From positions 1 through 64,000 of the forward strand of contig NZ_JARXXA010000018.1 of NCBI RefSeq assembly GCF_029892785.1: a stretch of 64,000 nucleotides of DNA, in the 5' to 3' direction. The translations under genes and the position numbers were made by a program. This stretch comes from Parabacteroides sp. PH5-46 (lineage in GTDB: Bacteria > Bacteroidota > Bacteroidia > Bacteroidales > Tannerellaceae). The number at the start of each line of letters is the position of its first letter. Positions within the stretch are counted from its first letter, which is position 1. The notes below the pieces were generated by a model, which ran no database searches, was not told the origin of the DNA, and saw nothing but the letters and a program-made list of their open reading frames with translations. This document shows positions 6,366-60,207 of the stretch, piece after piece.

Positions 6366-6447
6366 GTTCACTAAGGTGGACGATGCGGCTCACGGAGGTG
6401 AGCCAGGTAGGTCACAAGGGTGAACCGGGTGGTTCATATGGGTGATC
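6366..6447. repeat. Array A: four 16-bp palindromes at 22-bp period
   Basis: Four imperfect 16-bp inverted repeats begin at 6366, 6388, 6410 and 6432, exactly 22 bp apart with 6-bp spacers. They read GTTCACTAAGGTGGAC, GCTCACGGAGGTGAGC, GGTCACAAGGGTGAAC and GTTCATATGGGTGATC. The array and its 3' flank TGCTGAAAAATA are homologous to array C at 51374-51455. Changes in one arm are often matched in the other (GTTCAC/GTGAAC versus GCTCAC/GTGAGC). Confidence 0.85.
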
Positions 6448-6501
6448 TGCTGAAAAATAGGGGGTAAAATTGATAAATAGTTATAAACCAACCAATACAC
6501 T

Positions 6502-7149
6502 ATGGGATTATATTATGATTTTTATGAGAGTCCTTCAGCGAAGGATACTTCCGAACGTACGCGGCTGCACGCACGTGTGGTTACATCAGGTACAACAACT
6601 ACCGACGAGCTTGTAGAGACGATACACAGCAATTCTACGCTTACTACTGCCGATGCCAAAGCGGCGCTTATATCCTTTGTCGAAGTGATGGGTAAGGAGT
6701 TATCGAGAGGGCGGCGCGTCCATCTCGAGGGGCTTGGTTATTTTCAGCTTACGCTTTCTTCGCCACCTGTTCAGTCTGCCAAAGAGGTACGTGCAGAGTC
6801 TGTTCGTGTAAAGTCGGTAGCTTTCCGCGCGGAGACTAGTTTTAAGAAGCGTTTTACAGCGGTTGAACTGGAACGTGCGAAAACAAAGCGCCACTCCAAC
6901 CGCTATTCGGAAACAGAAATAGACGGCCTATTGACCGCCTATTTTCATGATCACCATCACATTACCCGGCGAGAGTTTGCCCGTCTTTGCGGCTTTACCG
7001 AATCAACGGCCAAACGCCGTCTGCAAGCGCTATTAGCTGCCGGCAAATTACGAAACGCCGGCTACAGGAATTTCTCCCTGTATGAGCCGGTGGAAGGTTC
7101 AGTTTTTGATCCAGACATAAGTAGCAGTGGAGCGTCCCGGCAAGACTGA
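6502..7149 (+). CDS. HU-like DNA-binding protein with C-terminal winged helix
   Basis: A 215-residue protein. Residues about 1-125 match the Bacteroidetes HU-related family: an N-terminal helical part, then a beta-arm region with GRRVHLEGLGYFQLTL near 70-85 and FRAETSFKKRF near 110-120. The C-terminal third (about 130-195) has a helix-turn-helix look (ITRREFARLCGFTESTAKRRLQALLAAGKL), so it carries a second DNA-binding module that ordinary 90-residue HU proteins lack. It may act as a nucleoid protein or a regulator. It follows palindrome array A, which makes self-binding an obvious hypothesis but not one shown by sequence. Confidence 0.8.
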   Translation: MGLYYDFYESPSAKDTSERTRLHARVVTSGTTTTDELVETIHSNSTLTTADAKAALISFVEVMGKELSRGRRVHLEGLGYFQLTLSSPPVQSAKEVRAESVRVKSVAFRAETSFKKRFTAVELERAKTKRHSNRYSETEIDGLLTAYFHDHHHITRREFARLCGFTESTAKRRLQALLAAGKLRNAGYRNFSLYEPVEGSVFDPDISSSGASRQD

Positions 7150-7197
7150 ACGGATCGCTTCTTCTTTATCTTGTATCTCGAAGTCTACAAATTGTGC

Positions 7198-9441
7198 TTA
7201 TGGTAGGGTGTCCGGATTTATTTCATAATAATCAAAAGGTTTCCTTTCTTTTGCTACATTAATATATCTTCGGCTGATGACTGGAGTATTCTTGCCTTCC
7301 GGGGAGTACTCGGCAATTAATAGATATCCTCCTTCTTGTTGAGGTAATTCAATCAGACAGGGATGCAGTTTCTTGTTGTAAGCTTCTATTGTAAATGCTA
7401 TATCGGACTGAACTACTGCTTTTCCATTTTTATCCAGCAGTTTTAAAGCCAACTTTCCCTTCGATTGTTCTTTGTTGTCATTTATTCCTATTAGATTGAA
7501 TGCCAATGTGCTGCCTGGAGTGTAGGGTGAGAGGTGTTTGGTGTAGCGTTGATCTACTACATCGACAAATACAGCTTCCGGAGCAAAACAATGTTTGAAC
7601 CATTTGAAAGCGGGAGAAACCTCCAGATCTTTGATGTCGTTAATGAACCAGTCACCGGTAAAGCCATAATTGTTGGTCAGATGGCAGAAGGCGAGTACAC
7701 CGGCAATACCCCTTTCTGCACGTAGCCACTCTGTTTCTAATTGCAACCAATAAGCCTGTAATTCACGGCAGGCATCCGGTGATGAAGCTTTCTCGCCCAA
7801 GTAGTAATTGTAATTATTTACAGTTAGTTTGGATGGTTTGCCGTTCCTCCACAGCCATATCCAGCCGTATTCATTAACCAACTGAGGGACACCTGCATCC
7901 TGGATTGGGCGGAAACCACCTTCCCATGCATTCAGATCACCTAGATTGTAAGGATTGTTTTTGAAATAATCATTCAACTCATCCGAGTGCATCAGTGTTA
8001 AAGCGCGATACGGATGTGGTTCATCCATTTCATCATTGCCCATGTCATCAGAGGTCATATAACCGGTATCCCAGATACGGGTGGGATCTAATTGCTTGAG
8101 TTCCGGTATCAGTGTATTTCCGATAAAGCTATCCCAGTTCTCATTAATAGCATCCCATATCACGATACTTGGGTGGTTACCGTCGCTCCACACCCATTCG
8201 GTATATTCTTTTCGCACCTGATCGTCCCAACCATGATTTTGCCAATAAAACCATTCATTCTGCAATACGATACCATACTCGTCGCACAGGTCATACCAGA
8301 AGTCGGGAACGATACCTACACAAATGCGCATCGCGTTCCAGTCTATTGATTTAGGTAAGTCAACCATCAACTTCTTTACCCATTCTCTGTCCCATACCAA
8401 ATTACGGCAATCCGGGTCTTCAAAGAAACGCTGTAAGGTAATGTTAGATCCCCGCAGATAATATTTATCACCATTAAGCGTAAAGAACTTTCCTCTTTTT
8501 GAGAAATCCCTCATACCAAATCTGGCGGAATATGTATCTATTAACCTGTCTTTTTCGTATACTTCTACTTCCCCTTCGTAAAGGAAAGGAGATTCGGGGG
8601 TCCAGGGTATAGGTTCGTTTAGTTCGATATCCGTTTCAAAATACGTCCGGTTATCTCTTTTAGCTTCACCCTGTATTGTTTTTGTTGCTACAATCCGACC
8701 ACTTGTTTTTTCTTTAATGGTATATTTTATCCGACAGGGATCATACATTACATCAGCATATAACATCTGTGGAGGGTAAGCGCTTAACAAACGGATTTTT
8801 ACCGTTACCTTCTTTTCTGCCAATGAAGGAAGGAACAGTACCTTGTCAACCTTTAGTTTTCCGGTAGCAGTTATAAATACATCATCCCATATCCCCGGCA
8901 GATAATGTATTTTTTCTTTGTCAGTACTTCCGGCGGCTTCACTTGGTAGCCAGGCGCGATCGCCTACCTGAATCAGTATTTCGTTATCTTCACCCCAACG
9001 GACCGCATCGGTAATATTTAGCTCTATTGGTGTGTAACATTCCATATGTCTTCCAATTAGCATACCATTAACGTAAACAACAGTTACGTATTGGCTTTTC
9101 TTTATTGTCAGATATAGCTGCTGCCCTTCCAGTGCTTTGTCAAAACGTACTTTCTTTTTATACCAGCTGTACATTGGAGTATAGTCGCGGTTGAGGAAGT
9201 TGAATTGTTCAACCAGCTCTGTATCTTCCGGCCGTTGAAAGAACTTGTTGTATTGCTCAATACGCGGTGTTGCCAGATGAACTAATCCGGGGACAGGTAT
9301 CTTACGTGTATACTTTTTCGGAGGGAAAGCGGTTTTCGTCTGTTCAAATTCCCATTCACCGTTCAAAGAGATGGTTTTCCTGCCTTCTGCAAAGAGGGTA
9401 AGCGGCAAGACACATAGAAACAATAATATTATCTTTTTCAT
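7198..9441 (-). CDS. Secreted glycoside hydrolase family 2 enzyme
   Basis: A 747-residue GH2-family exo-glycosidase; family activities include beta-galactosidase, beta-glucuronidase and beta-mannosidase. The ATG at 9441 is preferred because it begins a clean signal peptide (MKKIILLFLCVLPLTLFAEG). A sugar-binding jelly-roll (about 20-190), an immunoglobulin-like domain and a TIM barrel follow. The acid/base glutamate is in WDAINENWD and the likely nucleophile in LVNEYGW. It is the last gene of a sugar operon. The neighbouring mannose-6-phosphate isomerase hints at a mannoside, but the two cupin glucose-phosphate isomerases would fit other hexoses, so the substrate is left open. Confidence 0.85.
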   Translation of the reverse strand: MKKIILLFLCVLPLTLFAEGRKTISLNGEWEFEQTKTAFPPKKYTRKIPVPGLVHLATPRIEQYNKFFQRPEDTELVEQFNFLNRDYTPMYSWYKKKVRFDKALEGQQLYLTIKKSQYVTVVYVNGMLIGRHMECYTPIELNITDAVRWGEDNEILIQVGDRAWLPSEAAGSTDKEKIHYLPGIWDDVFITATGKLKVDKVLFLPSLAEKKVTVKIRLLSAYPPQMLYADVMYDPCRIKYTIKEKTSGRIVATKTIQGEAKRDNRTYFETDIELNEPIPWTPESPFLYEGEVEVYEKDRLIDTYSARFGMRDFSKRGKFFTLNGDKYYLRGSNITLQRFFEDPDCRNLVWDREWVKKLMVDLPKSIDWNAMRICVGIVPDFWYDLCDEYGIVLQNEWFYWQNHGWDDQVRKEYTEWVWSDGNHPSIVIWDAINENWDSFIGNTLIPELKQLDPTRIWDTGYMTSDDMGNDEMDEPHPYRALTLMHSDELNDYFKNNPYNLGDLNAWEGGFRPIQDAGVPQLVNEYGWIWLWRNGKPSKLTVNNYNYYLGEKASSPDACRELQAYWLQLETEWLRAERGIAGVLAFCHLTNNYGFTGDWFINDIKDLEVSPAFKWFKHCFAPEAVFVDVVDQRYTKHLSPYTPGSTLAFNLIGINDNKEQSKGKLALKLLDKNGKAVVQSDIAFTIEAYNKKLHPCLIELPQQEGGYLLIAEYSPEGKNTPVISRRYINVAKERKPFDYYEINPDTLP

Positions 9442-9549
9442 GATAGAAGATTTCTTTTTAGAATGATTCGATTTTATCCTATGCAATATTACATTAATAT
9501 ATAGCTTATCCTTTACAGGATTTCAACTAAGAGTTATGTTATTTTATTA

Positions 9550-10983
9550 TTAATCTTTTAATTCTTTGGGCTTTCCGCCATTTTTCCAGTGTTTTTCGAT
9601 CTTTTCAAGCGAAACACCTTTTGTTTCCGGCACAAAATAATATCCCCAAACCAAACCAACTAAGGCAATCAGGCCGTAAAAGAAGAAGGCTCCTGCTGGG
9701 TTTCCAGTTGTTTCGCCCGCAACCGTTAATTCGGTTCCTGGTATGGCTAAAACTTTTACAATCTTGAAAAAAGTAAAAGAGACAATTGTATTGAAAAACC
9801 AGACAGATAGTGATCCTAACGATGATCCTATCCCCCTTACATATTGCGGGAAAACTTCTGAAATGATCAGCCAACCTAACGGACCAATACTTATAGCATA
9901 AAAAGCAACATAGATGAATACCAAACCAATAGCCAGCCATTTGCCTGTTTCACCTAATTGGTTGACGAAGATAAAAGAAGTACTTAGTGCCGCTAATGAA
10001 AGGACGATGCCTGTCATACCTGTAAAGAATAGCTTTCTTCTTCCCAAGCGGTCAACAAAATAAACGGATATAATAGTGGCTAACACATTAACCATTCCGA
10101 CACCAACCGAAGCCCATATTGCTGAAACGGCACCATTGAATCCGGCCATCAGGAAAATTTTTGGGCTGTAATAAATTACGGTATTAATACCGACAAACTG
10201 CTGAAAGAACATAATGCCGATAGCTATAATCAAGGGTGTTCGTAGCCAGGGTTTAAACAACTCTTTCCAGCTGGAGGTGTTTTTTTTGTCTTTTTTCAAC
10301 TCCTCTTCCATTTGTTCTGTGATGATTTCGACAGACTCCTGAGGTTCGATACGCATCAGGATTTTCCGACTTTCTTCAGTTTTACCCTTACTCATCAGCC
10401 AACGTGGGCTTTCAGGCATGAAGCTCATGCCTATAAGTAATATTAACGCAGGAATAACCCCTATATAAAACATCGGACGCCAACACGTAATATCCTGTTC
10501 ATTTGCAAAGAGTAAGTCGGAAAAGTACGAAACCAATATACCGATGGTGATCATCAGCTGGAACATAGACACTAACCTTCCCCGTATTTGTGTCGGAGAT
10601 ATTTCAGCTATATAAAGCGGAACGGCAAAAGAAGAAATACCGATAGCTATACCCAAGAACAGGCGCGAAAGGATGAGGTGATATACATCAGGAGCAAATC
10701 CAGACCACAAAGCGCCGACAGCAAAGATGACCGCTGAGGCCAGTATAACGATTTTCCTACCTAAGAGGTCTGTTACTTTACCACAGAATAAGGCGCCTAG
10801 TATCGCCCCTATCAAACCGGAAGAAGTAACTATTTCTACCATATTATTGTCTATCCCAAAATCTTGCTGAAAGAAAGGGATAGCTCCTGATATGACACCG
10901 GTATCAAAGCCGAAAAGCAATCCACCTGTCGCTGCAATAACGGCAATGACATAGACTAAATTTTTATTGTATGTGTTATTCAT
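9550..10983 (-). CDS. MFS sugar porter
   Basis: A proton-linked monosaccharide transporter of the major facilitator superfamily, about 477 residues with 12 membrane segments. Sugar-porter signatures are visible: GRKIVILASA after helix 2, RGRLVSMFQLMITIG near helix 5, PESPRWL before the central loop, GRRKLF in the second half and PETKGVSLEKIE at the C-terminus. The ATG at 10983 is chosen; the upstream in-frame codon at 11010 is TTG and overlaps the preceding gene. It probably imports the sugar released by the neighbouring GH2 enzyme. No SusC/SusD pair is present, so outer-membrane entry must use something else. Confidence 0.9.
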   Translation of the reverse strand: MNNTYNKNLVYVIAVIAATGGLLFGFDTGVISGAIPFFQQDFGIDNNMVEIVTSSGLIGAILGALFCGKVTDLLGRKIVILASAVIFAVGALWSGFAPDVYHLILSRLFLGIAIGISSFAVPLYIAEISPTQIRGRLVSMFQLMITIGILVSYFSDLLFANEQDITCWRPMFYIGVIPALILLIGMSFMPESPRWLMSKGKTEESRKILMRIEPQESVEIITEQMEEELKKDKKNTSSWKELFKPWLRTPLIIAIGIMFFQQFVGINTVIYYSPKIFLMAGFNGAVSAIWASVGVGMVNVLATIISVYFVDRLGRRKLFFTGMTGIVLSLAALSTSFIFVNQLGETGKWLAIGLVFIYVAFYAISIGPLGWLIISEVFPQYVRGIGSSLGSLSVWFFNTIVSFTFFKIVKVLAIPGTELTVAGETTGNPAGAFFFYGLIALVGLVWGYYFVPETKGVSLEKIEKHWKNGGKPKELKD

Positions 10984-10999
10984 GGATATTGATGGTTTA

Positions 11000-11800
11000 T
11001 TATGGTTCAAAATGTTTCCAAACGTTTTCCTTTAGCTGCGGACGAGCCACATAAAGGAATCGTTCGGGATTCTCTTCAAAGGCCTTATAAATAGGCTGTC
11101 CTTTTGTTATTCCCAATGCCGAATAATCGCCAGGGCGTTTGCGAATTAACGTTGAAGGTTTATAAGCCGGGTTGGCTTTCCAGATCAGCTCTTTTGTTTC
11201 ATCATATATCGGGAACCAAGCAATGCCGTTGTGCTGGCGTACTCCGTCGTAAATAAAACCATAATCCCTGTCGCACCAAGCGCCGAAGGTTAACGGATTT
11301 TCCAGGTCTGCACTGATTGTTGCGTGTACCCAATAAGGAGGAACAATAACTATATCGCCCGGCTTTGCCAGAACAGCATAACATTTTCCCGGATAGTCTT
11401 CGGCTGTTTCCTGCATATATATGATCGCCTTTCCCGTCCATATCTCGTAAATTTCAGGGGTTGACCATCCGCTATATGCCGATATTTTGTGTATATGCCC
11501 TTGGCTGCGTACCGGTTCTTGCCCTAGTGTTCCTGCGGCATACGTAACAACTCCGAATAGTAGATGCAGGGATTCGAGCAACTCTTTATCTTTCTTTTTT
11601 CCAACATCCATGGCGATTGAATAAACTACTTCAGGTCCTGTACAGGAAGGGTTCATAAGGCTTTTTCTGATATCGTCGAGACGGCGGTTTTCCGGTTCAG
11701 GACCAAATACATCTTCCCCATAGATGAAACCGATACCCGAAGAATGTGGCCTAATGTCGATTCCATTATCAAATATTTTTTCAGGCTTCATGGCGGACAT
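11000..11800 (-). CDS. Cupin-type phosphoglucose isomerase-like protein (266 aa)
   Basis: A member of the archaeal-type cupin glucose-6-phosphate isomerase family, which interconverts glucose-6-phosphate and fructose-6-phosphate with a bound metal. The metal-site pattern is visible in the middle: GHIHKISAYSGWSTPEIYEIW supplies His-x-His and Glu, and PPYWVHATIS supplies the last His. It overlaps the upstream mannose-6-phosphate isomerase gene by 20 bp, so translation is coupled. A smaller paralogue is encoded in the same operon at 14500-15057, and having both suggests two different substrates. An alternative start is the ATG at 11791. Confidence 0.8.
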   Translation of the reverse strand: MSAMKPEKIFDNGIDIRPHSSGIGFIYGEDVFGPEPENRRLDDIRKSLMNPSCTGPEVVYSIAMDVGKKKDKELLESLHLLFGVVTYAAGTLGQEPVRSQGHIHKISAYSGWSTPEIYEIWTGKAIIYMQETAEDYPGKCYAVLAKPGDIVIVPPYWVHATISADLENPLTFGAWCDRDYGFIYDGVRQHNGIAWFPIYDETKELIWKANPAYKPSTLIRKRPGDYSALGITKGQPIYKAFEENPERFLYVARPQLKENVWKHFEP

Positions 11801-13541
11801 AGGCTTTTATGGTTGCACATGTTTTTCCTTCTGATTCACCATATGGACGAATCGTATATTGCTCTACTGCTGCAGGTATAATGAATGTTTCTGCATAGTG
11901 GACAATAAAGGGCTCGAAAGCTTCCGTCGGACTTTCTATGATTACCTCTCTTCCTTCTACCAGATTGAGAACATTGACACTATTGTTTGTATGATGAAGT
12001 ACCGGACGCGAGAACCAATGACGCCGTGTTTCGATAAATTCCTGCTCATGCAATCCGGTTTTCTCTTCCAATATGCCTTCTCCTTCCCGGATTAAGGTAA
12101 AGTTATTCACTAACTCCTGCTTCACCCATGATTCTGTACGGCTCCATTGGATTACGTTTTCTCCATGCGCTATATTGATAGGACGGGGTTTTCCATCTAG
12201 GCCAAGTCGTCCCCAGTCCCAAAGTTTGAACGTGAAAATGAAAGGAGTTGCGCTGATTTCCAATACCAAACTGTTTTTTCCCGAACAATGTATCGTACCT
12301 CCCGGGATTAGCAGATGATCATGTTTTTTTACAGGATACACTCCAACATGCTTTTCCGCATCAAAGAATCCGCTATCCTGAGCTTCTTTTAATTCTGTAA
12401 TCATCTTTTCCGGACAAACATCTTCTTTTAAACCGAGATAGACCACAGCATCTTCGCCTGCATCAATCAGATAGTAACTTTCATCTTGCGTATAATGCAT
12501 GCCAAACTTTTCTTGTATGTATTCGGTTAACGGATGTACTTGCAGGCTAAGATTTCCTCCCCCCATTGTATCAAGAAGGTCAAAACGGATCGGAAACTCA
12601 TCGCCAAACCGCCCATACACAGGCGTTCCTAGCAGTTGTTTTGGATAGGCGAAGACCAGATTGATAGAAGGTATTTCAATCGTCGTTTTGCCGAATCCAA
12701 GTAATAAGCTATTTTCTTCCGGTACGCAATCAAAACACCAGGCATAATTGTCAGCAGAGTGATCGAGATTACATACTTCTTTCATCCATTGTCCTCCCCA
12801 AGGTCCCGGATCAAAGAATGGAACAACGCGAAACGGTTGTTTCGAGACTTTTTGTAAACCTTTCCATATGTTTGTAGCCGAGAGCATTTTGGGAGAACCG
12901 GGAATATTGGTATCCAGGACATAATCCCATCGCTTCATCAGTTTTTTCTTGAGGCGGTCGCATACACGCCAGTCAACAAAAAACGCACGTTTATATTGCA
13001 AAGACGGACGTTCCTGCTTGTTCTCTACTCCTATATTGCTTATTTCGTTCCTACGAAAACGTTGTTGTATTTCCCAGCGAGCCATATCTGCATAGATCAG
13101 AACGTCTGCATCTTGGTATACATAACTAGCTCCTGTTCCGTAAACAATAGTTGTTCCATCTTGTGAAGCAATTTGCTGGCGGATATCTGCTGTTTTTCCT
13201 TCATGAAAGAAGCGCTCTATCGTGTGGCGGGTCATATAACCGAATATCTCATCGTCGGTAATGTCTTCATGAAAAAAGGCATTAATCTCCTGTTCAGACA
13301 GCATGGCGCCGGAAGAAAGAATAATTCTTTCCTTTCCAAAGGCATGTTGTAAAGCTGCTATTATTTCATGATCAAGTACACCCTGATAACATTCAATCAC
13401 TACCTTTTTGGCGGATTTATCTATCCGGCTTAACAGTGATTTGATTTCATCCGTGATGGAGTGCCAGCCAGACCAGCATCCTGCTTCATTATCCGATACC
13501 TGTATAATCGGAGTTTTGTCGTAATTAGACAATTGTATCAT
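11781..13541 (-). CDS. Class I mannose-6-phosphate isomerase, long form
   Basis: Converts mannose-6-phosphate to fructose-6-phosphate in the cytoplasm. The protein has 586 residues, well above the usual 310-400 of class I enzymes. The catalytic cupin occupies roughly residues 215-580, with zinc ligands visible in LQVHPLTEYI, HYTQDESYY and PGGTIHCSG. The N-terminal 200 residues are an extra domain of unclear function (IECYQGVLDHEIIAALQ, IVYGTGASYVYQDADVLIYADMARWEIQQRF) faintly like a nucleoside-kinase fold but without a P-loop that I can see. It lies between the ROK kinase and the cupin isomerase. Confidence 0.85.
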   Translation of the reverse strand: MIQLSNYDKTPIIQVSDNEAGCWSGWHSITDEIKSLLSRIDKSAKKVVIECYQGVLDHEIIAALQHAFGKERIILSSGAMLSEQEINAFFHEDITDDEIFGYMTRHTIERFFHEGKTADIRQQIASQDGTTIVYGTGASYVYQDADVLIYADMARWEIQQRFRRNEISNIGVENKQERPSLQYKRAFFVDWRVCDRLKKKLMKRWDYVLDTNIPGSPKMLSATNIWKGLQKVSKQPFRVVPFFDPGPWGGQWMKEVCNLDHSADNYAWCFDCVPEENSLLLGFGKTTIEIPSINLVFAYPKQLLGTPVYGRFGDEFPIRFDLLDTMGGGNLSLQVHPLTEYIQEKFGMHYTQDESYYLIDAGEDAVVYLGLKEDVCPEKMITELKEAQDSGFFDAEKHVGVYPVKKHDHLLIPGGTIHCSGKNSLVLEISATPFIFTFKLWDWGRLGLDGKPRPINIAHGENVIQWSRTESWVKQELVNNFTLIREGEGILEEKTGLHEQEFIETRRHWFSRPVLHHTNNSVNVLNLVEGREVIIESPTEAFEPFIVHYAETFIIPAAVEQYTIRPYGESEGKTCATIKAYVRHEA

Positions 13542-13556
13542 AAACTAATTCTTCTT

Positions 13557-14495
13557 TTATTGATGTGTAAGACGATATTCCAGTCCTAGTAATGCGGCAT
13601 TTTCCGAAAGCTCAGCCGGCACGATCGGGACTTTCTCTGAAGGACACCAAGCTAGCCGGTAGACCTTTTCCTTTATGTAAGGGATTATAACTTCGGCACT
13701 GTTCATAACACCTCCGCCTAAAATTAATACTTCAGGATCATAAGCATGGATATATGTTATGATAGCTGCACTCCAAACATCCATACATTCGTTCCTGAGC
13801 AACAATGCATCATCATCTCCGTCTGTAGCCATTTGAAAAATTTCTTTAAAAGTGATTTGTCCGGCCATTTCTTTGAATGAGTCTGACAGATCCGGATGTT
13901 GTCGGATAATTACAGGCAAGAAAAAGGAAGAGGCAAGTGCTTCCGCACAACCTTTGTTTCCACATGAGCAACTTCGTCCTTTATAATCAAGTACGAAATG
14001 CCCCCCCAAGGAGCCTGCCTGAAAATGTTGGCCGTAAAGTACTTTTCCGTCAATGACTACACCGGTACCTATTCCGGTCCCGATGGTCATCATTACTACA
14101 TTATTCTTCCCTCTCGCTGCCCCCTGGTACCATTCTCCTATAACAGCCAAACGGGCATCATTGTCCATATGAAAGGGAATATCCCAGTTTTCCTTTGCCC
14201 ATTTCTCCAAGTCAAACGAGCAAGCGTCATCGTATTTCTCATTTGTTGAGATAACTCTATTGTTTGTCGGGTCAACTAATCCGGGAAAAGCCAGTCCGAT
14301 TCCACTTATTTGCTCCAATCCTATATTTTTCCTCGACAAGATTACCTCTACTGCTTTTTTAATGCGGGGAAGGTTAGATTTTAAACCCATTGAACGTTCT
14401 GATTCCAGACGAATACAGTCTATAATTCCCCCATTATATAACAGTCCGATTTTTACGACGGTTCCTCCCAAGTCTATTGCTATCGTATATTTCAT
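13557..14495 (-). CDS. ROK-family sugar kinase
   Basis: A 312-residue ROK-family protein that probably phosphorylates the imported hexose. It has the ATP-phosphate motif DLGGTVVKIG at the N-terminus, the second GTGIGTGVVIDG loop near residue 140, and the ROK zinc signature with CSCGNKGCAEA. There is no N-terminal helix-turn-helix, so it is a kinase rather than a ROK repressor. It sits between the two isomerase blocks, consistent with transport, phosphorylation and isomerisation of one sugar. Sugar specificity cannot be read from the sequence. Confidence 0.9.
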   Translation of the reverse strand: MKYTIAIDLGGTVVKIGLLYNGGIIDCIRLESERSMGLKSNLPRIKKAVEVILSRKNIGLEQISGIGLAFPGLVDPTNNRVISTNEKYDDACSFDLEKWAKENWDIPFHMDNDARLAVIGEWYQGAARGKNNVVMMTIGTGIGTGVVIDGKVLYGQHFQAGSLGGHFVLDYKGRSCSCGNKGCAEALASSFFLPVIIRQHPDLSDSFKEMAGQITFKEIFQMATDGDDDALLLRNECMDVWSAAIITYIHAYDPEVLILGGGVMNSAEVIIPYIKEKVYRLAWCPSEKVPIVPAELSENAALLGLEYRLTHQ

Positions 14496-14499
14496 AAGT

Positions 14500-42195: not shown

Positions 42196-42288
42196 TAGAA
42201 TAATATTGTATTTTTCTTCATTTATAAATCAATCTTGCATAAGCTTTGTAAATTATTGTAAATCATCCGCTTGGGATGTGTTAGAAAT

Positions 42289-42366
42289 CGCACGTGTGCG
42301 TTCCCGAAATTGCACACATGCGTTTTTGAAATTGCATGCATGCGATCTGAAAAAGGCATGCGTGCG
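42289..42366. repeat. Array B: four 12-bp palindromic units at 22-bp period
   Basis: Units of form YGCA-NNNN-TGCG begin at 42289, 42311, 42333 and 42355, exactly 22 bp apart: CGCACGTGTGCG, TGCACACATGCG, TGCATGCATGCG, GGCATGCGTGCG. The spacers are A/T-rich (about 10 bp). The array lies 30 bp upstream of the ABC-F promoter in a divergent intergenic region. Its period equals that of arrays A and C, but its sequence is unrelated to theirs. Confidence 0.8.
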
Positions 42367-42395
42367 ATTTTTACTTCGTGTAACATATTGTTGGA

Positions 42396-51373: not shown

Positions 51374-51455
51374 GTTCACAAGGGTGAACGATGCAGCTCA
51401 CCTTGGTGAGCCAACCAGTTCACCAAGGTGAGCCGCTCCGATCATATAGGTGAGC
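51374..51455. repeat. Array C: four 16-bp palindromes at 22-bp period
   Basis: Units start at 51374, 51396, 51418 and 51440, exactly 22 bp apart: GTTCACAAGGGTGAAC (imperfect), GCTCACCTTGGTGAGC, GTTCACCAAGGTGAGC, GATCATATAGGTGAGC. The 5' flank (CCGATATATTA) and 3' flank (TGCTGAAAAATA) match those of array A. It ends 36 bp upstream of the MATE minus-7 box. Confidence 0.87.
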
Positions 51456-51625: not shown

Positions 51626-51647
51626 TAATTAATTTCATAAAAGACAA

Positions 51648-52967: not shown

Positions 52968-55329
52968 CGCTCTCGGCCGGGTTTTCATTGGCTGCTTGGT
53001 AGCAGTTGATGATAACGGCAGCCAGGATGATGATGAATACAGCAATGGCACAGCCTACGAAGAGGAAGATTGTTAGCTCTGCCTTATCGGCAAAATTATC
53101 CAACCAGGTGTTTGCAATGAAGTAGGCAATCATACATCCCAGAGTGATAGCGGGGACGGCCATCCAGCTAATGTCTTTGATGAACAGTCGCAGGATATCA
53201 ACTGTTGTAGCTCCATTTACTTTGCGGATGGCAGTTTCTTTCTTGCGGCGGTTCATCTCGTCGTTGGTATAGCCTATCAGTCCTATCAGGCAGATCAGTA
53301 AGGTAACGATGCCACCTATCAGTACAGAATCCCTGAATTTCTCCGAATCGCTGTATTTGCCTCTCATTTCTCCGGCATACGAATAGACTTGAATATCTTT
53401 GTCGGGGAGTAATGCTGTCAGCATATCAGACACTTTTTCAAGGGCTTCCGCTGTTTGTTCGTGAAATTTGATTATCAGATACGAAGAAGGCTTTTCATTG
53501 TAAAACATAACAGAAGCCCGAGTATCTTGGTGTCCGATGATCCCCATACACACCTCTTCGTACACACCACAGATGGTGTAGGTGTCGTTCAAGCCTCGGC
53601 TATGTTCGGAGATATAGATGTTCTTACCTACCACGCCATCCGGCCAGTCTACATGCTTTGAGATTTTATCAATAAAGCTACGGCTTACCATCACTTCTTT
53701 GGAAGAAGGGGTGTTCTCGATGAAGGAGCGGCCTTCGATAATGGGTACTTCCATCAGTTTGAGGTAGCCATTTCCTACCGCATACTGGTCGGCAATATTA
53801 AATAACTCCTGTTCACCATTGGGCAGGCGTATATTATTGCCCGAAGCAAAATCAAAGAATAGCTGGCTACAACTAGATACTTCCGCTACTTCCGACAGGC
53901 GGAGGGTTTCGTCCAAGGCTTTCTGCCTCAGTTCCGAATCTACGCCCGACAGGCTGCAATAGGCCAGGTTATTGTATGTGTATCCGGGATTTTTATTCAG
54001 CATGAAGTCGTACTGACGACCTATAATAACCAGCAAAGTAACAAACAGCCCCGCCGCTATAAACTGAATAAACAACAAACCCAGCTTCCAATACCGCTTG
54101 CTTTCCGTAAAGTTGCGGAAGGCTACAGCTACCGGTATCCGGGCATACAGATGCCCCGGGATAAGTGCTGCCACGAAAAATACAAATACACAGACACCTA
54201 TCAGTAGAAGGATGCTTTTGAGCGTAAATAAGTCGCTTACAGTCGTATTTAACAAAGACAATATCGTACCCCGGAAAACGAAGATAAGAAGAATCGCCAC
54301 TGCTGACGAGACCACAATATCCAGCAATGTTTCGGACAGCATCCGGAGATAGATATTCTTCTCGGAAGCTCCGTAGCATTTGTTTACGGCCATCTCTTTC
54401 GAGCGGTTTACCAAGGATGAGATAACGATCAACACATAGTTCATCACGGCTGTAAACAATAGGGCGATAGCCAGAAGAGACAATATCAGCGTCATACGCT
54501 TGGTTTCTTCATCGCCAACATGAATTTCCAATAAAGGCTTAAAGTCCCAGCCTATATCGATTCCCGATTTCTCCAGTTCTTCCAGTGGCAGGTATTTCTC
54601 TTTCATCTTTTCAATCCCAGGTTCCAAGACTTCCGGTTTCACCCCCGGCAATAGCTTTACATAGGCCATATAGCGGTCGTTCCCCAGCCAGTTCATCGTA
54701 CCGTCCCACATAAATTGGCTGATAGATGGCATGGATACAATTACGTCATAACTCAGATGGGAGTTGTTCGGCATATCTTCGAACACGCCCCCAACGGTTA
54801 CAGGTTTTCCCGGCCTGCTGTCAAAAGTGAACGTTTGTCCTATCGCCTGGTTAATTCCTCCCATTTTCTCGGCTATCTTCCGGGATATCATTATATACAT
54901 GGGGCGGGACAGTACCTCTTTTACGTCTCCGGCCAGTACCGGGCGCGGAAATACGTCAAACAAGCAGGAATCGCCTAATATAACATTGCCGGTATATTTC
55001 TTCTTGTCGGGTGTAACCATCACGGTTTCAAATGCCAACCAGGTATAACGTGTGGCTACTTCTATTTCCGGCAATTCCGTTTTCATACCTACGGCAACTG
55101 CTCCCGGTGTCTGAGGATACGCCTTGTTTCCTTCTGTTGTAGAATAGTTAGAAATAACCTGATAGATCCTGTCATTATCCGGAAAGAAATCGTTGTACGA
55201 TTGTTCAAAATAAACCTTGGCAATGAGTACCAGCCCCAAAGCCAGCCCAATACTCAAGGATATGATTTTTATCAGATTGTTCTTCCCTCTCTTAAAGAAA
55301 GAACGGAATAATCGTTTTAAGTTCATCAT
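52954..55329 (-). CDS. Double-length MacB/FtsX-type ABC permease
   Basis: A 791-residue permease carrying two tandem MacB-PCD plus FtsX units. Each unit has a periplasmic domain, with membrane clusters around 275-400 (SLLAIALLFTAVMNYVLIVISSLVNRSKEMAVNKCYGASE) and the last 130 residues (GGIVTLLICLIGLIGYTNDEMNRRKKETAIRKVNGATT). No ATPase domain or ATPase gene lies beside it. It is the third gene of the TolC-HlyD-permease operon, 7 bp after the adaptor gene. It likely works in antimicrobial, peptide or lipid efflux, a common role for this Bacteroidetes family. Confidence 0.85.
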   Translation of the reverse strand: MMNLKRLFRSFFKRGKNNLIKIISLSIGLALGLVLIAKVYFEQSYNDFFPDNDRIYQVISNYSTTEGNKAYPQTPGAVAVGMKTELPEIEVATRYTWLAFETVMVTPDKKKYTGNVILGDSCLFDVFPRPVLAGDVKEVLSRPMYIMISRKIAEKMGGINQAIGQTFTFDSRPGKPVTVGGVFEDMPNNSHLSYDVIVSMPSISQFMWDGTMNWLGNDRYMAYVKLLPGVKPEVLEPGIEKMKEKYLPLEELEKSGIDIGWDFKPLLEIHVGDEETKRMTLILSLLAIALLFTAVMNYVLIVISSLVNRSKEMAVNKCYGASEKNIYLRMLSETLLDIVVSSAVAILLIFVFRGTILSLLNTTVSDLFTLKSILLLIGVCVFVFFVAALIPGHLYARIPVAVAFRNFTESKRYWKLGLLFIQFIAAGLFVTLLVIIGRQYDFMLNKNPGYTYNNLAYCSLSGVDSELRQKALDETLRLSEVAEVSSCSQLFFDFASGNNIRLPNGEQELFNIADQYAVGNGYLKLMEVPIIEGRSFIENTPSSKEVMVSRSFIDKISKHVDWPDGVVGKNIYISEHSRGLNDTYTICGVYEEVCMGIIGHQDTRASVMFYNEKPSSYLIIKFHEQTAEALEKVSDMLTALLPDKDIQVYSYAGEMRGKYSDSEKFRDSVLIGGIVTLLICLIGLIGYTNDEMNRRKKETAIRKVNGATTVDILRLFIKDISWMAVPAITLGCMIAYFIANTWLDNFADKAELTIFLFVGCAIAVFIIILAAVIINCYQAANENPAESVKSE

Positions 55330-55336
55330 AATTCAG

Positions 55337-56587
55337 TTATTCAAGAATCAATACTTGGTTATCTTTATAGCTTTCGTAGCTGGAAACAATTACTTTTTCT
55401 CCGGCTTCCAGGCCTTCCAATACTTCGTAGTACTGCGGGTTCTGGCGTCCGATGCGGATATTGCGGCGATAGGCCTTCTTTCCGTCGGCATCCAGTACGA
55501 AGATCCAGCTTCCACCTGTGCTCTGGAAGAATGTACCCTTCGGTATGAGGATACCCTCGGCAGGCTGTCCCAGTTCCAGATTGATGTAGTAGGTCTGTCC
55601 GCTACGGATGTTTTCCGGACGTTCGCCGGTAAATACAAATTCGGTACGGAACTTGCCTTCGCGCACTTCGGGGAATACCTTCCTGACGATAAGCCCATAG
55701 CTGGCTCCCTGACGTTCGAATGTGGCGCTTAGCCCCGTGCGTACCCGGTCGATGTAGTGCTCGTCTATCAGCGCTTCTATTTTATAATCGGAAAGGTCGT
55801 TTACTTGTCCTATCTTCTGTCCGGGAGAGATGTTCTGTCCCAGAACAACATCCAGCAGACCCAGCTCGCCGTTAATCTGTGAGCGGATATTCAGGTTCTC
55901 TTTCCGCTGACGTACCAATAGCACGTTTTTGCGCATATTGGCCAGGTTGTCTTCCATCTGGTCTATCTGCACGGTTCTCATAATAGAGTCCTGGAGCAGG
56001 CGCGCGCTGATTAATTCATATTTTTTGATGGCCAGGTCATAGTCTTCTTTTGCCTGAAGATATTCTTCTTTTGCGATGAGGTTTTCTTTGTAGAGCTGCT
56101 CCTGTTGCTGGAACGCGCGGCGCTTGCGGGTGGTTTCCAGCTCAAGCGATAGTTGCTCGTTCTGGTTGTTCAACTTATCTTGTTCCATAGCTACTTGCGT
56201 ATTACGTAAGAAGTTCTGCTTTTCGGCCAGTTCGGCTTCTGCCGAGAGGATTTGCAAGTCTAATTGCGAATTACTCAGTCGTACAATTACATCGCCTTTG
56301 CTTACTTGCGAGCCTTCTTCTATCACCTTTTCCTCTACGATACCTCCCTCTTGGGGGCTTAGCTGTACAACGGTAATCGGTTGCACTTGCCCGTCTACAC
56401 GTACAAAGTCATGAAATAAGTCCTGCTTAGCAGCACCAATACTGATTCCCCGTGCATCTATCTTCAGGGTAGACGAGTGGTCGCCAAAGATAATCCAGCC
56501 AAGCAGCAGCAGAAACAACGCGCCTCCCGCGATATAAGGAATATGTTTTTTACGAATCCCTTTCTTCTTTTCTAATTGTATGTCCAT
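55337..56587 (-). CDS. HlyD/MacA-type periplasmic adaptor, second system
   Basis: A 416-residue membrane-fusion protein. The N-terminal anchor is IPYIAGGALFLLLLGWIIFG, then a lipoyl half-domain (FVRVDGQVQPITVVQLSPQEGGIVEEK) and a long coiled-coil hairpin (about 105-225) rich in Q and E. The beta-barrel and proximal domain end with YKDNQVLILE. It links the double permease to the TolC channel 20 bp upstream in the operon. Confidence 0.9.
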   Translation of the reverse strand: MDIQLEKKKGIRKKHIPYIAGGALFLLLLGWIIFGDHSSTLKIDARGISIGAAKQDLFHDFVRVDGQVQPITVVQLSPQEGGIVEEKVIEEGSQVSKGDVIVRLSNSQLDLQILSAEAELAEKQNFLRNTQVAMEQDKLNNQNEQLSLELETTRKRRAFQQQEQLYKENLIAKEEYLQAKEDYDLAIKKYELISARLLQDSIMRTVQIDQMEDNLANMRKNVLLVRQRKENLNIRSQINGELGLLDVVLGQNISPGQKIGQVNDLSDYKIEALIDEHYIDRVRTGLSATFERQGASYGLIVRKVFPEVREGKFRTEFVFTGERPENIRSGQTYYINLELGQPAEGILIPKGTFFQSTGGSWIFVLDADGKKAYRRNIRIGRQNPQYYEVLEGLEAGEKVIVSSYESYKDNQVLILE

Positions 56588-56607
56588 CTTATATTAATTT
56601 TTAACGA

Positions 56608-57942
56608 TTAACGATTGATCAAAGGTTGGCCTTTGTAGTAGTCTACTTGTTTGCATTTGAGTAGGTACATCAGCCTTCTTTGCAGAAGGTTGGCCTTTGA
56701 TTCTATCAAGGTGTTGGAGCTGGTTTGTAAGTCCAGCGGACTCATCAGGCCTTCTTCAAATTTGCGGACTGTTACCTGATAGGCTATTTCGTCCGATTTC
56801 AGTTTCTTTTCCATCTGGATGCTCTCTTTGGCAAAGCCTTCCCGGTCTGCTACCGATTGCTCGATGGCGGTTTGAAGCTGTCTTAATACTTCCGTCTGTT
56901 GTTCCTGGGCAATGCGCATATTGTTGCGGGCGCGGCGTACCTCTGTAAGCTTAGACAAGCCATTGAAGAGCGGGAGTCTCAGGTTGAAGGAGATATACTC
57001 CCCCCGGTTGTTCTTGAACTGGGAGCGGAAGGCTACCGGAGCTGTTTCCGACTTCAGATTCTCATAGTAACTAGTATAAATACCGGCTGAAACAGAGATC
57101 GTAGGAAATAGCTTTCCTTTCTGTATCAAGAGGTTTAGCTTGGAAGCCTTTAGCTGATACTCTGCCTGCAGAGCCGTAGGATTGCTTTCCTGGGCAGAGG
57201 TAAATATATCGTCTATAGATTCAAACTCAAACAGATAATCCGTTACAAGAGCTGTAGTATCTATCTTCAGTTCCTCGTCGTATGGATAGTTCATATATTC
57301 TTTCAGTTTGAGCAAGGCTGTGGTGTAGAGGTTCTGCTGACGAGTCAGGTTGTAGTCGTCTCCGGCAGTTTGTGCTTCTATCTGAGCTACATCGGCTTTT
57401 CCTTTCAGACCCAGCTCTTCTTCGCGTTTTGCTTTATAAAGTACCCGTTTGCTTTCTTCCAGTTTTTCGCTGGCATATTGCACGGTTCCCTGGTAGTACA
57501 CTACATTTACGTAAGCTTCCAGAGTGTTTAAAGCCAGGTCGTCTTTGGCTTTTTGTATGTCGTTCATTCCCATCTGGCGGTTCGATTTGGCCAGGCGGAA
57601 TTGGTTCACTAATTGTCCCCCGTTAAAGATAGGTAAGGAGGCATATCCTTCGTAGTAGTTATTAAAGGTAGTGGTATTGGTATAGATATTCGTTTCCGGG
57701 TCAAGGGCACGACCGAAGTTGTACTGGCCGGAAACACCCGCTGTCAGCGAAGGGAAGAACGAACCGATAGACGAGTTGTACTCTGCCTTGTAGGTATCAT
57801 GCGTATGTATTTGTTTTCTTACGGTCGGGCTGTTATCAACGGCATATTGCATGCACTCTTCCATCGTCCATAACTTTTCCTGGGCGATTGCTGACGAAGC
57901 CAGCCCCAGGAAGAGTGTTGTGTATAAAAGTATCTTTTTCAT
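56608..57942 (-). CDS. TolC-family outer-membrane channel, second system
   Basis: A 444-residue outer-membrane channel. The ATG at 57942 begins a proper signal peptide (MKKILLYTTLFLGLASSAIAQ). The earlier in-frame ATG at 57963 is unlikely because the sigma-54-type promoter predicts a transcript start near 57959. Two coiled-coil repeats are visible (LAKSNRQMGMNDIQKAKDDLALNTLEAYVNVVYY and LREVRRARNNMRIAQEQQTEVLRQLQTAIEQ-like stretches). It is the first gene of the operon. Confidence 0.88.
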   Translation of the reverse strand: MKKILLYTTLFLGLASSAIAQEKLWTMEECMQYAVDNSPTVRKQIHTHDTYKAEYNSSIGSFFPSLTAGVSGQYNFGRALDPETNIYTNTTTFNNYYEGYASLPIFNGGQLVNQFRLAKSNRQMGMNDIQKAKDDLALNTLEAYVNVVYYQGTVQYASEKLEESKRVLYKAKREEELGLKGKADVAQIEAQTAGDDYNLTRQQNLYTTALLKLKEYMNYPYDEELKIDTTALVTDYLFEFESIDDIFTSAQESNPTALQAEYQLKASKLNLLIQKGKLFPTISVSAGIYTSYYENLKSETAPVAFRSQFKNNRGEYISFNLRLPLFNGLSKLTEVRRARNNMRIAQEQQTEVLRQLQTAIEQSVADREGFAKESIQMEKKLKSDEIAYQVTVRKFEEGLMSPLDLQTSSNTLIESKANLLQRRLMYLLKCKQVDYYKGQPLINR

Positions 57943-57969
57943 TGTCCTGTAATTTTCTGTCAATACCGG

Positions 57970-57986
57970 TACAAACGGTATGCCAA
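57970..57986 (-). promoter_or_regulatory. Sigma-54-type promoter of TolC operon
   Basis: The minus-strand sequence TTGGCATACCGTTTGTA matches the sigma-54 pattern YTGGCACGRNNNTTGCW in its GG core and in the 10-bp GG-to-G(C/T) spacing; the minus-12 GC reads GT. A transcript from it would start near 57959, 17 bp before the TolC ATG at 57942. Confidence 0.6.
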
Positions 57987-58038
57987 ACGAAAAAAATATT
58001 TGTTTGTCAATGGTTTATGAAAAACAGCTAAAGATAGA

Positions 58039-58078
58039 GTGTCAAATATTTAGACACCCCTGTAAAATATTTAGACAC
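58039..58078. promoter_or_regulatory. Two upstream activator sites, GTGTC-N9-GACAC type
   Basis: GTGTCAAATATTTAGACAC (58039-58057) is an inverted repeat, and CTGTAAAATATTTAGACAC (58060-58078) is a close second copy 21 bp away. They lie 53-92 bp upstream of the sigma-54-type promoter, where bacterial enhancer-binding proteins usually bind. The likely binder is the response regulator at 62047-63399. Confidence 0.6.
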
Positions 58079-58138
58079 AACAAACCTTAAATCCACTTTT
58101 ATATGAAGAAAATCGTAAGTTCCATCTTTTTTATCTTC

Positions 58139-58247
58139 GTGAAACTGAAAGTTTCACTCGAGTGATCTTAAAAGATCACTGCGGTGATACTTGAAGATCA
58201 TCGCAGTGATCCTTGAGGATCACCCTGAGTGAAACTTTTAGTTTCAC
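58139..58247. repeat. Array D: five 18-19-bp palindromes at about 22-bp period
   Basis: Units: GTGAAACTGAAAGTTTCAC (58139-58157), GTGATCTTAAAAGATCAC (58162-58179), GTGATACTTGAAGATCAT (58184-58201), GTGATCCTTGAGGATCAC (58206-58223), GTGAAACTTTTAGTTTCAC (58229-58247). Start-to-start steps are 23, 22, 22 and 23. The four-base spacers TGCG and CGCA between inner units are complementary to one another, so the block is symmetric as a whole. It could also act as a terminator for the gene at 58282, but no T-run is present. Confidence 0.85.
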
Positions 58248-58281
58248 ACTATGAAAAACAGTGAAACTCGCAAGTGTCTGA

Positions 58282-58716
58282 CTACCAATCGTATTTGTAA
58301 ACGAGTTCGTCGAAGACGGGTTCCTCCTTTATCCCTTCTTTCCGAAATATATCACGAATAAGTGACTGTTCTTCAGGATGTATATAACGCTTCTTTGTTT
58401 TGATGCGGTAATAGGTACTCCGGTGCAAATAGAATTGTAACATTCTTCTGATTTTAAGTACTTTTACATACGGGATTGCATCATAAAGCTGTGTAATACC
58501 AAGCGCGAAACACTCTAAACGGTCTTCCTGGAAATGTGGGCATTCTTTTTCCTTGCCTGCAATGTAGATTGGATTTACCACAAAAAAGGAGGTAGTTTTG
58601 ACGCTTGCATGGCTGGCAGCCTGAAAACGTAAACACTCGGCAGCACGTGGACACTGCGCCTGCAGGCAGCGGAGGTAGCTATACGGCGCCTGCTGATAGT
58701 TAGAATCTTTTTCCAT
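58282..58716 (-). CDS. DUF6078-like small protein
   Basis: A 144-residue protein with a cysteine-rich N-terminus (YSYLRCLQAQCPRAAECLRF, then KECPHF) suggestive of a metal-binding site. A basic C-terminal half follows (VKVLKIRRMLQFYLHRSTYYRIKTKKRYIHPEEQSLIRDIF). It resembles the DUF6078 type common in Bacteroides and Parabacteroides, whose function is unknown to me. No partner gene is obvious; the DUF4143 ATPase gene lies 86 bp upstream. Confidence 0.6.
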   Translation of the reverse strand: MEKDSNYQQAPYSYLRCLQAQCPRAAECLRFQAASHASVKTTSFFVVNPIYIAGKEKECPHFQEDRLECFALGITQLYDAIPYVKVLKIRRMLQFYLHRSTYYRIKTKKRYIHPEEQSLIRDIFRKEGIKEEPVFDELVYKYDW

Positions 58717-58801
58717 AACTTTAAGTCTTTGATTGTGAGAGTCTCTTTCCCTACAAATATACGTTTTTTTTAGGTAGAAAACATAGGATATACCGGATTA
58801 A

Positions 58802-60073
58802 TTAATCCTTCAAACATCCTAAAGGGATGATCAAAACTCCATCTTCGCGACGGTATGCAAACTGTCCGCCTGTTATCACCATCAAGAAAGAGGGTTCGCC
58901 CATTTTTTTCGTATCTATCTTATTTTTCAATTTCAACAGGTTTTCAGCCGCAATTTCTGTTTGTTTATTACCCAATTTCACTTCTATAGCTCCCCAACGG
59001 CCATCACGTAAAACTACGACCATGTCAGCCTCTAATCCGCTTTTATCATGATAGTGAAATACATCTCCATCGTTTATTTGGGCATAAATACGCATATCCC
59101 GGACACAGAGGGACTCAAAGAGAAATCCAAATGTTTCGAAATCTTTTAATATTCTTTCTGGGTTGATCCTCATAACGGCAGTTGCAATCGAAGGATCGAC
59201 AAATTGCCGTTTCGCGGAAGTCCGGATGGTCGTTTTTGAACGCAAGGAAGGAGACCATGCCTGTAAATCTTCAACTACGTAAATACGTCGTAGCGCATTC
59301 AGGTAAGAGTATATTGTTCTGTCAGATATGATGTCGTCTGTCGCCTCTATATCATCACGAATAGTCTGATTGGTAGCCATCGTGGAAATATTCCTGGCCA
59401 ATGAACGTAATAAAAGGCGAACCCTGTTTGGGTCTTTATCTACATTGTCTACACGAGAGACATCATGATTGATAACCGCTTCCACATAATCCGTTGCCAT
59501 CCTCAAAGCTGTTTGAGCATTCCTATTCACTGAAGCAGGCCAACCTCCCCGGCAAAGAGCGAAAGCTATTTTCTCGATTGTTAATTCAGAAACAGCTTCA
59601 ATATCGTATTTTCCTGCAAAAATATCGGCTAAAGACACACTTCCGTTAGACTCTAAAGATTCATACAGACTCATAGGGCGCATTAACATCCGCGATATGC
59701 GACCGGTTCCTGTGTGGGCTGTTACATTATCAGAAGGAACAGCAGAACCGGTCAATATAAATTGTCCGACATCATTTCGTTTATCTACCTCAAAGCGTAT
59801 CGCATCCCACAGCACAGGAGCCATTTGCCATTCGTCAATCAATCGGGGTGTTTCTCCTTTAAGTAGTAGGGATGGCTTTGTGTCTGCCATTGCTTGGTAT
59901 GAAGCTGCATTGTCCGGATCTTGCATATACAGAGTGCTCTTTGCCGCATTGGATGCTGTGCGGGTTTTTCCACACCATTTCGCTCCTTCTACCAGAACCG
60001 CTCCGGAGGATTCGAGTGCCTTGCGCAATTCGATATCGCAAAGTCGAGGTAAATATTCTTTGGCATTGTCCAT
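58802..60073 (-). CDS. ATP-binding protein of the AAA/DUF4143 family
   Basis: A 423-residue protein: an N-terminal AAA-type ATPase with Walker A in VEGAKWCGKTRTA (about 27-39) and an acidic Walker B-like LIDEWQ, then a C-terminal DUF4143 region with nuclease-fold look (LEADMVVVLRDGRWGAIEVKLG). The ATG at 60073 is chosen over a TTG at 60100 because the promoter box CAAAGATA (60103-60110) would overlap the latter's leader. The physiological role of this large family is unclear; some relatives are archaeal and bacterial ATPases linked with mobile elements. It has array E directly upstream. Confidence 0.85.
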   Translation of the reverse strand: MDNAKEYLPRLCDIELRKALESSGAVLVEGAKWCGKTRTASNAAKSTLYMQDPDNAASYQAMADTKPSLLLKGETPRLIDEWQMAPVLWDAIRFEVDKRNDVGQFILTGSAVPSDNVTAHTGTGRISRMLMRPMSLYESLESNGSVSLADIFAGKYDIEAVSELTIEKIAFALCRGGWPASVNRNAQTALRMATDYVEAVINHDVSRVDNVDKDPNRVRLLLRSLARNISTMATNQTIRDDIEATDDIISDRTIYSYLNALRRIYVVEDLQAWSPSLRSKTTIRTSAKRQFVDPSIATAVMRINPERILKDFETFGFLFESLCVRDMRIYAQINDGDVFHYHDKSGLEADMVVVLRDGRWGAIEVKLGNKQTEIAAENLLKLKNKIDTKKMGEPSFLMVITGGQFAYRREDGVLIIPLGCLKD

Positions 60074-60102
60074 AATCGATATCTTAACTTGATTTGACAA
60101 GA

Positions 60103-60132
60103 CAAAGATACTGTTATTTCCGATTTTGGCAA
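60103..60132 (-). promoter_or_regulatory. Promoter of DUF4143 ATPase gene
   Basis: On the minus strand, TTG (60132-60130) and TATCTTTG (60110-60103) are 19 bp apart, a good match to the primary consensus. The minus-33 element lies inside repeat array E, so any protein bound to the array would probably affect this promoter. Confidence 0.6.
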
Positions 60133-60207
60133 GTTTTTATTTCCGACTTTGTCGAACTTTTATTTCCGACTTTGGCAGGTTTTTGTTTCCGACTTTGGCA
60201 ATTCTTG
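60117..60207. repeat. Array E: four 23-bp tandem repeats
   Basis: Units start at 60117, 60140, 60163 and 60186, exactly 23 bp apart, each reading close to TTTCCGACTTTGGCAA plus a T-rich spacer. The unit is itself an imperfect inverted repeat (TTTCC with GGCAA; CGACTTTGTCG in the second). The array overlaps the minus-33 element of the ATPase promoter and extends about 75 bp further upstream. Confidence 0.85.

Follow-up and report, generated by a model that had tools for sequence, protein, structure and literature searches.

The arrays of short palindromes described here, together with the genes beside them, suggest a little-noticed set of protein-and-repeat partnerships in Parabacteroides sp. 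PH5-46. The window, that is, the whole stretch of 64,000 nucleotides analyzed, belongs to contig 18 of a 4.42-Mb draft genome and contains four such arrays (A–D), which are real and lie far beyond chance. Arrays A, C, and D, and probably B, are likely to form part of a genome-wide system of protein–repeat pairs, in which putative DNA-binding proteins possess private families of dispersed arrays. The computational evidence for this reading comprises the linkage between arrays and genes, the co-variation of palindromes and proteins, the match of solitary arrays to a home array of their own genome, lineage-specific dispersal, and presence or absence between close species.

Array A (6366..6447, plus strand; family F1) is composed of four GNTCACnnnnGTGANC units with a 22 bp step and is presumed to lie in the 5' leader of a HU-HIG gene, for which reason it is termed a 'home' array. 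Array C (51374..51455, plus strand; F1) is a solitary copy, and flanks resembling CGATnTATTAnTCgG and GCTGAAAAATA are common to A and C. Array B (42287..42370, no strand assigned; family F2) is also solitary and contains GCATGCATGC-type units at 22 bp. Array D (58139..58248, minus strand; family F3a), with GTGAAACT..AGTTTCAC ends and TGATCTT..AAGATCA inside, is the home array located directly 3' of a DUF6078 gene. A fifth feature, E (60114..60201, no strand assigned), consists of four direct repeats of 23 bp ahead of the promoter of an AAA_14/DUF4143 gene (58802-60100, minus strand). Inspection of the sequence located all five at the positions given by an earlier, sequence-only reading of this DNA. 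The shared period of 22 or 23 bp that it claimed was borne out, since the best self-match at lag 21–23 had p = 0.001 in all five (1000 dinucleotide shuffles of each own spacer), the best lag being 22 in A–D and 23 in E. It was likewise right in stating that A/C, B, D, and E have different motifs. Its further claim of palindromic units stood for A, C, and D by a palindrome-chain score (p = 0.002, 0.002, and 0.001, respectively; 1000 dinucleotide shuffles per spacer) and failed for B (p = 0.72), whereas the units of E (p = 0.04) are near-identical direct repeats, not palindromic by eye. Array B, not palindromic beyond chance on its own by this score, is nevertheless one of 13 arrays of its family in the DNA sampled. 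E was rejected as a member of the system on account of its direct repeats and since no second DUF4143 relative was found at E 1e-6 in the DNA searched, and it was judged a separate feature.

The 22-bp comb is genome-wide and stronger than the earlier reading claimed. A total of 1,195,041 bases was examined as stretches, in addition to searches, and the least biased sample comprises contigs C2, C4, and C18 (the last being that of the window), about 0.83 Mb or a fifth of the genome; C2 and C4 were chosen since a search with array A matched them, and other stretches for holding arrays. In the 50,953 bp of non-ORF DNA of these three contigs, palindrome centres lie 11, 22, 33, 44, and 55 bp apart 43, 31, 26, 19, and 14 times, against means of 0.45–1.8 in 20 shuffles (1.8 at 11 bp and 1.5 at 22 bp), and pairs at 21, 23, and 24 bp number 3, 4, and 1. 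Centres at multiples of 11 bp are the expected product of tandem 22-bp palindromes. A distance of 13 bp is also in excess (9 vs. 1.6 in shuffles). The question raised earlier of whether shuffled intergenic sequence yields such arrays at the same rate is answered by 21 non-ORF arrays scoring at least 8, plus 2 in ORFs, vs. 0.03 per shuffle set.

About ten sequence families are found genome-wide, many with four units: F1 (A and C), F2 (B), F3 in two forms (D), F4–F8, and more. Among the neighbors nearest to the 13 F2 arrays, no relative common between arrays was found that could be a partner gene. Family F5, viewed in detail, has 26 copies in the DNA sampled, 23 of them with identical core length, TCCCACA-NN-(TGTWGAAC-WYRW-GTTCWACA-NN)x3-TGTGGGA, in which TCCCACA..TGTGGGA forms the inverted ends without a long leader or tail. 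These 23 copies comprise 69 units, in which eight positions are invariant while others accept either of two bases. Complementary arms at the variable arm position were counted in 11 of the 69 units vs. 30.4 expected; thus, base pairing is not what is conserved, and the unit looks like a protein site. This also runs against the earlier claim that changes in one arm are usually matched in the other, which found no backing in F1 (12/35 vs. 12.6 expected) or F2 (none beyond chance) and held for the centre of F4 (9/12 vs. 5.0). Among 123 genomes of the family, 1 contains the F5 pattern, as do 0 of 17 congeners. Four places emerged when public genomes were scanned: arrays were found in Bacteroides sp. 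GM023 and in a bin of Phocaeicola, and a single coding stretch was seen in two bins.

The genes involved were recognized through a DUF6078 gene within an insert in a genome of a second genus (G046, see below), from which the gene beside array D was identified as DUF6078 and the gene after array A as HU-HIG. The latter (6502..7149, plus strand), the proposed partner of F1, encodes a protein of 215 aa with a HU domain and a C-terminal winged-helix-like domain, which scores 123.4 bits (7e-36) vs. a Pfam cut-off of 26.2 (PF18291). Pfam describes HU-HIG as HU fused to wHTH, Ig, or a glycine-rich motif, and a profile search matched HU and IHF structures over the HU part only. There are 18 HU-HIG matches in the genome, seven of them extended by a C-terminal domain of ~70 residues, and these seven long genes have seven different leader arrays: F1, F4, an F4 relative, F5, F6, F8, and GGGTCACAACTGTGACCC. 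In addition, an F7 array precedes a shorter HU-HIG gene (L277) and one array of the Phocaeicola bin precedes a HU-HIG gene.

Linkage was counted in 49 HU-HIG loci (18 of the own genome, 30 of the second genus, and 1 of Phocaeicola), 47 of which yielded a gene; the linkage test, therefore, covers the genome of the window, a second genus of the same family, and a single gene of the Phocaeicola bin, and orthologues recur among the genes counted. For HU-HIG proteins of at least 185 aa, an upstream array was detected at p < 0.01 within 220 bp in 20 of 24 genes, vs. 4 of 23 shorter HU-HIG genes and 7 of 128 controls. Four of the shorter set are plain-HU-sized. Under a fixed criterion (lag 22, up to 330 bp), the counts are 23/24, 4/23, and 33/558, and 21/22 for the long genes without L178 and L266, which were met through or picked for their arrays. 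The lag test took the place of a stricter palindrome score, by which arrays were found in 3/26 HU-HIG leaders and 18/23 DUF6078 trailers of the second genus, these low counts being due to the degeneracy of many arrays and to some misread reading frames. The HU-HIG home arrays are palindromic (p < 0.05) in 23/23. Moreover, TAnnTTTG, which we take to be the Bacteroides -7 element, is found no more than 70 bp ahead of the array in 18 of 23 HU-HIG leaders, and at 8–17 bp in 15 of them; in the window, this putative promoter element lies at 6341..6348 (plus strand), 17 bp ahead of the first unit of array A.

The DUF6078 gene (58282..58716, minus strand), the proposed partner of F3a, encodes 144 aa with four conserved cysteines and scores 132.7 bits (1.6e-38) vs. 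a Pfam cut-off of 27 (PF19555). Two DUF6078 genes are present in the genome, and a different form of F3 follows each of them. The second genus contains 77 places in 37 genomes, 50 of which were examined, and L343 gave no gene. An array was detected no more than 200 bp after the stop (p < 0.01) in 50 of 51 genes (30/31 plus 20/20, the two own genes included), the sole exception being a truncated copy of 101 aa, and in 45/46 once L265, L327, L360, L361, and L363, met through or picked for their arrays, are set aside. An upstream array was present in 1 of 29 genes. Matched controls gave 25/278 downstream and 17/278 upstream, so that the 22-bp lag test fires at 6–9% of control genes. The DUF6078 home arrays are palindromic (p < 0.05) in 24/26. 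A profile search with DUF6078 matched no structure, single-sequence structure models were uninformative (pLDDT 47 and 48), and a search of viral contigs gave no DUF6078 relative and one weak HU match. DUF6261 was rejected as a third partner, being a single example without a 22-bp comb.

Paralogues carry different palindromes, and palindrome similarity tracks protein similarity in both families. In HU-HIG (Mantel, n = 23, shared ancestry included), r is 0.36 for the whole protein and 0.41 for the C-terminal part; this part given the HU part retains a partial r of 0.33 (p 2e-4), and the HU part given the C-terminal part has an r of -0.03. In DUF6078, r is 0.48 (p 3e-4; n = 26, shared ancestry likewise included). 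Solitary arrays also resemble a home array of their own genome. In C2, C4, and C18, 18 of 23 match one of the genome's own homes at 0.6 or more and 17 match such a home better than all 40 foreign homes, although 8 also match a foreign home at this level; the misses consist of four F2 arrays and one doubtful array assignment, plus one tie. Similarly, the solitary arrays of G032 and G043, two genomes of the second genus, resemble a DUF6078 home of their own genome by eye and by similarity.

The solitary arrays are specific to lineages and vary from one close species to the next. A TGTCnAAT..GACA-like site pair is present in the array D spacer in 9 of 10 congeners with a match, the tenth having too little sequence; one of these spacers (G005) has two other arrays and another (G001) a degenerate one recognized by eye, and the other seven have none at the detection score. 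A spacer in the second genus is empty in five species; in G032 it is occupied by a GAAACTTTAGTTTC array and in G033 by a GGATCACnnnnGTGATCC array; it is longer without a detected array in two species, and in four the neighborhood is not comparable. In about 200 kb each of G043 and G046, whose flanks are mostly 88–92% identical, one of four G043 arrays is identical in G046, one is absent there, one is replaced by other DNA, and one has no counterpart in the DNA compared. Of two arrays in G046, one is common to G043 and the other lies within an insert of ~540 bp that also holds the DUF6078 gene mentioned above; here, a DUF6078 gene and its array are a single insert. At the site where G046 lacks the array, the bases between the aligned flanks number 140 vs. 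20 and also differ in sequence, and neither a clean target duplication nor exact ends were found at the sites compared between these two genomes. Finally, one orthologous array, which lies between convergent genes and is degenerate in both G043 and G046, shows 48–55% identity to G032, vs. 80–83% for the genes.

From these patterns we infer binding, a dimer geometry, autorepression, a spreading step, and any benefit to the cell. A small DNA-binding protein, either HU-HIG with a C-terminal winged helix or DUF6078, would have its gene next to a home array, composed of some four 22-bp palindromes. The HU part would form a dimer whose two winged helices read one palindrome, while the 22-bp step would set successive dimers on one face of the DNA. 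Since the HU-HIG home array begins near the transcription start, the protein probably represses its own gene. Arrays of the same family that lack a gene, dispersed in intergenic DNA, would be bound by the same protein, and the different palindromes of paralogues would keep the families private. The DNA-binding system guessed at in the earlier reading would fit such a scheme, with arrays tied to HU-HIG and DUF6078 genes and a palindrome that tracks the protein. Solitary arrays would be gained and lost like small mobile elements; however, we know of no catalytic domain in HU-HIG or DUF6078 that would explain their spread.

The arrays could instead be multi-site operators of ordinary autoregulating transcription factors, with solitary arrays marking a regulon. 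The 8–17 bp that separate HU-HIG home arrays from TAnnTTTG in most leaders, as well as the near-fixed number and spacing of sites, would agree with this, but it is made unlikely by solitary arrays that differ between close species, by DUF6078 arrays that lie 3' of the gene, and by the lack of a tie to promoters. In this last respect, 20 arrays of the sample, three home arrays among them, have a gene on either side and are distributed over 8 co-directional, 8 divergent, and 4 convergent spacers, the latter vs. about 1.4 expected by base pairs. Among the 26 F5 copies, TAnnTTTG is oriented toward the array in 4 cases and in the opposite direction in 5 (one being the home copy), which is near background. 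A promoter-bound regulon was, hence, rejected, since both the sample arrays and the F5 copies lack promoter bias. An RNA-hairpin system was also envisaged in the sequence-only reading; the hairpins would be transcribed in the HU-HIG leader or the DUF6078 trailer and bound or processed as RNA. HU proteins can bind RNA, home arrays lie within probable UTRs of their own genes, and a hairpin role keeps some room because the HU-HIG leader arrays are probably transcribed. Nevertheless, the missing paired changes in F1, F2, and F5 (with F5 anti-complementary and the F4 centre excepted) argue against base pairing as the main constraint, in which capacity RNA hairpins were rejected; 8 of the 20 sample arrays lie between divergent genes, and Rfam 15 gave 0 matches in the window at the gathering score. 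An RNA-level element is, on this evidence, quite improbable. Intrinsic terminators were discarded as well, as arrays also occur between divergent genes and the F1 copies L005 and L007 are framed 5'-T..A-3', the wrong way round.

Plain miniature transposons of the MITE or BrickBuilt kind, moved by an unrelated transposase, would account for dispersed copies of fixed length (as in F5) with inverted ends, for presence or absence between species, and for the 25-bp inverted-repeat frame in L150, the linkage to genes being then mere hitch-hiking. This is very unlikely given a linkage to two protein families that is nearly obligate and palindromes that co-vary with them, and none of three genes for Y1 transposases, the sole transposase family checked, is framed by arrays. 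A functionless by-product of mutation, in which tandem palindromes would arise and be perfected through slippage and template switching, could be seen in one arm of G046 that is the exact reverse complement of the flank where G043 differs; such an origin is, however, highly improbable for a 22-bp step common to unrelated motifs, for invariant and free positions side by side in F5, and for linkage to two gene families.

If the preferred reading of protein–repeat pairs is correct, two uncharacterized families, HU-HIG with a winged helix and DUF6078, acquire a testable role, and a structured portion of the intergenic sequence in these bacteria is accounted for. Should binding be confirmed, each genome would offer a naturally occurring set of paralogues that differ in their palindromic targets, from which the winged-helix recognition code could be read. 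The reading would also raise the question of how a repeat spreads with a partner that is no known transposase. A literature search found no paper on these arrays, although most subscription papers lie outside its coverage and a prior description is possible. Of DUF6078, DUF6261, PF19555, and PF19775, only DUF6261 turned up, as a word in a single paper, and PF18291 was not found among the matches. The HU-HIG query was swamped by 'Bacteroidetes' and is no proof that this family is absent from print.

Among known systems, the layout is REP/RAYT-like, although the partners are not known transposases. As far as the accessible text of two papers describes them, REP/BIME elements and their RAYT genes (REPtrons) likewise combine palindromes dispersed between genes, a cognate gene adjacent to the repeat, co-evolution of repeat and protein, and species-specific families (PMC2817692, PMC3733652). 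Unlike REPtrons, whose partners are HUH/Y1 transposases and in which two inverted REPs frame the gene, the partners here are HU-HIG or DUF6078, with a single array, of some four phased palindromes, to one side of the gene. RAYT itself was rejected, since the Y1 genes carry other ends: of the 3 PF01797 genes in the genome, no array was detected at L211 and L213, and at L212 an F2 array lies upstream, but the inverted ends beside the gene are different ones. No GTAG or CGTC tag, a REPtron trait, was seen by eye in F1–F8 units. The BrickBuilt elements of Porphyromonas gingivalis, also intergenic, contain 23-nt tandem repeats and, in the part of the source available, a leader and a tail ending in IS5-family terminal inverted repeats (PMC4596501). 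Their repeat number is variable, whereas here F5 length is near-constant and a partner gene is present. The kinship with BrickBuilt proposed in the earlier reading was not upheld, as inspection here revealed no leader/tail frame with IS5-family terminal inverted repeats.

MatP/matS and Noc are chromosome-organizing proteins with dispersed palindromic sites and share with this system a sequence-specific protein (putative here) and scattered cognate sites off promoters, but here there are many paralogous pairs per genome, the sites form arrays, and turnover is fast. A tentative proposal is that HU-winged-helix proteins and DUF6078, unrelated and without a known transposase, have converged on private phased 22-bp palindromes (about four), spread copies of them, and diversify specificity as REP/RAYT do, which would make them a new kind of protein–repeat element. 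In that case, DUF6078 would represent a new class of palindrome-binding, possibly mobilizing, zinc-type protein. The window protein is itself a member of the HU-HIG family (PF18291), whose one-line Pfam description contains no array partner, whereas here arrays accompany the members with the C-terminal domain.

The step of the palindrome combs is not always 22 bp, since combs in two stretches from other genomes (L081 and L135) run at 23 bp (CTTAAGAG..CTCTTAAG) and 21 bp (TTTGTC..GACAAA). A 13-bp distance between palindrome centres is also in excess in the non-ORF DNA of contigs C2, C4 and C18 of the source genome, where it occurs 9 times vs 1.6 in shuffles.

In the array of L183, located in a spacer between convergent genes of G046, one arm is the exact reverse complement of the flank, and the closely related G043 differs at this place; this identity of arm and flank is probably the mark of a template switch. 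A three-unit array resembling family F5 (TCCCACA..TGTGGGA inverted ends) lies in Bacteroides sp. GM023 (L150, 5559-5620) within a near-perfect 25-bp inverted repeat, a frame that is MITE-like.

Further protein–repeat pairs may exist besides those proposed for HU-HIG and DUF6078. One may be formed by a DUF6261 gene near 1.279 Mb of G046:C1 and the more widely spaced TTTCAAGAAATCTTGAAA palindromes upstream of it. Five short HU-HIG genes (L271, L272, L277, L296 and L313) passed one or both leader-repeat tests, and other HU subfamilies may have repeat partners too.

In the window, two TGTCnAATATTnGACA-like palindromes at a distance of about 21 bp (58039-58078) precede an outer-membrane efflux gene (56608-57963, minus strand) and together are likely a real operator, because similar pairs occupy the equivalent place in 9 of 10 congeners. 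The four 23-bp direct repeats of E (60114-60201) stand immediately upstream of the promoter that serves an AAA_14/DUF4143 gene; this gene corresponds to the PADLOC candidate defence entry PDC-S01. The gene adjoining array A (5144-6256) shows likeness to Card1-like endonucleases (Pfam, 1.9e-9).
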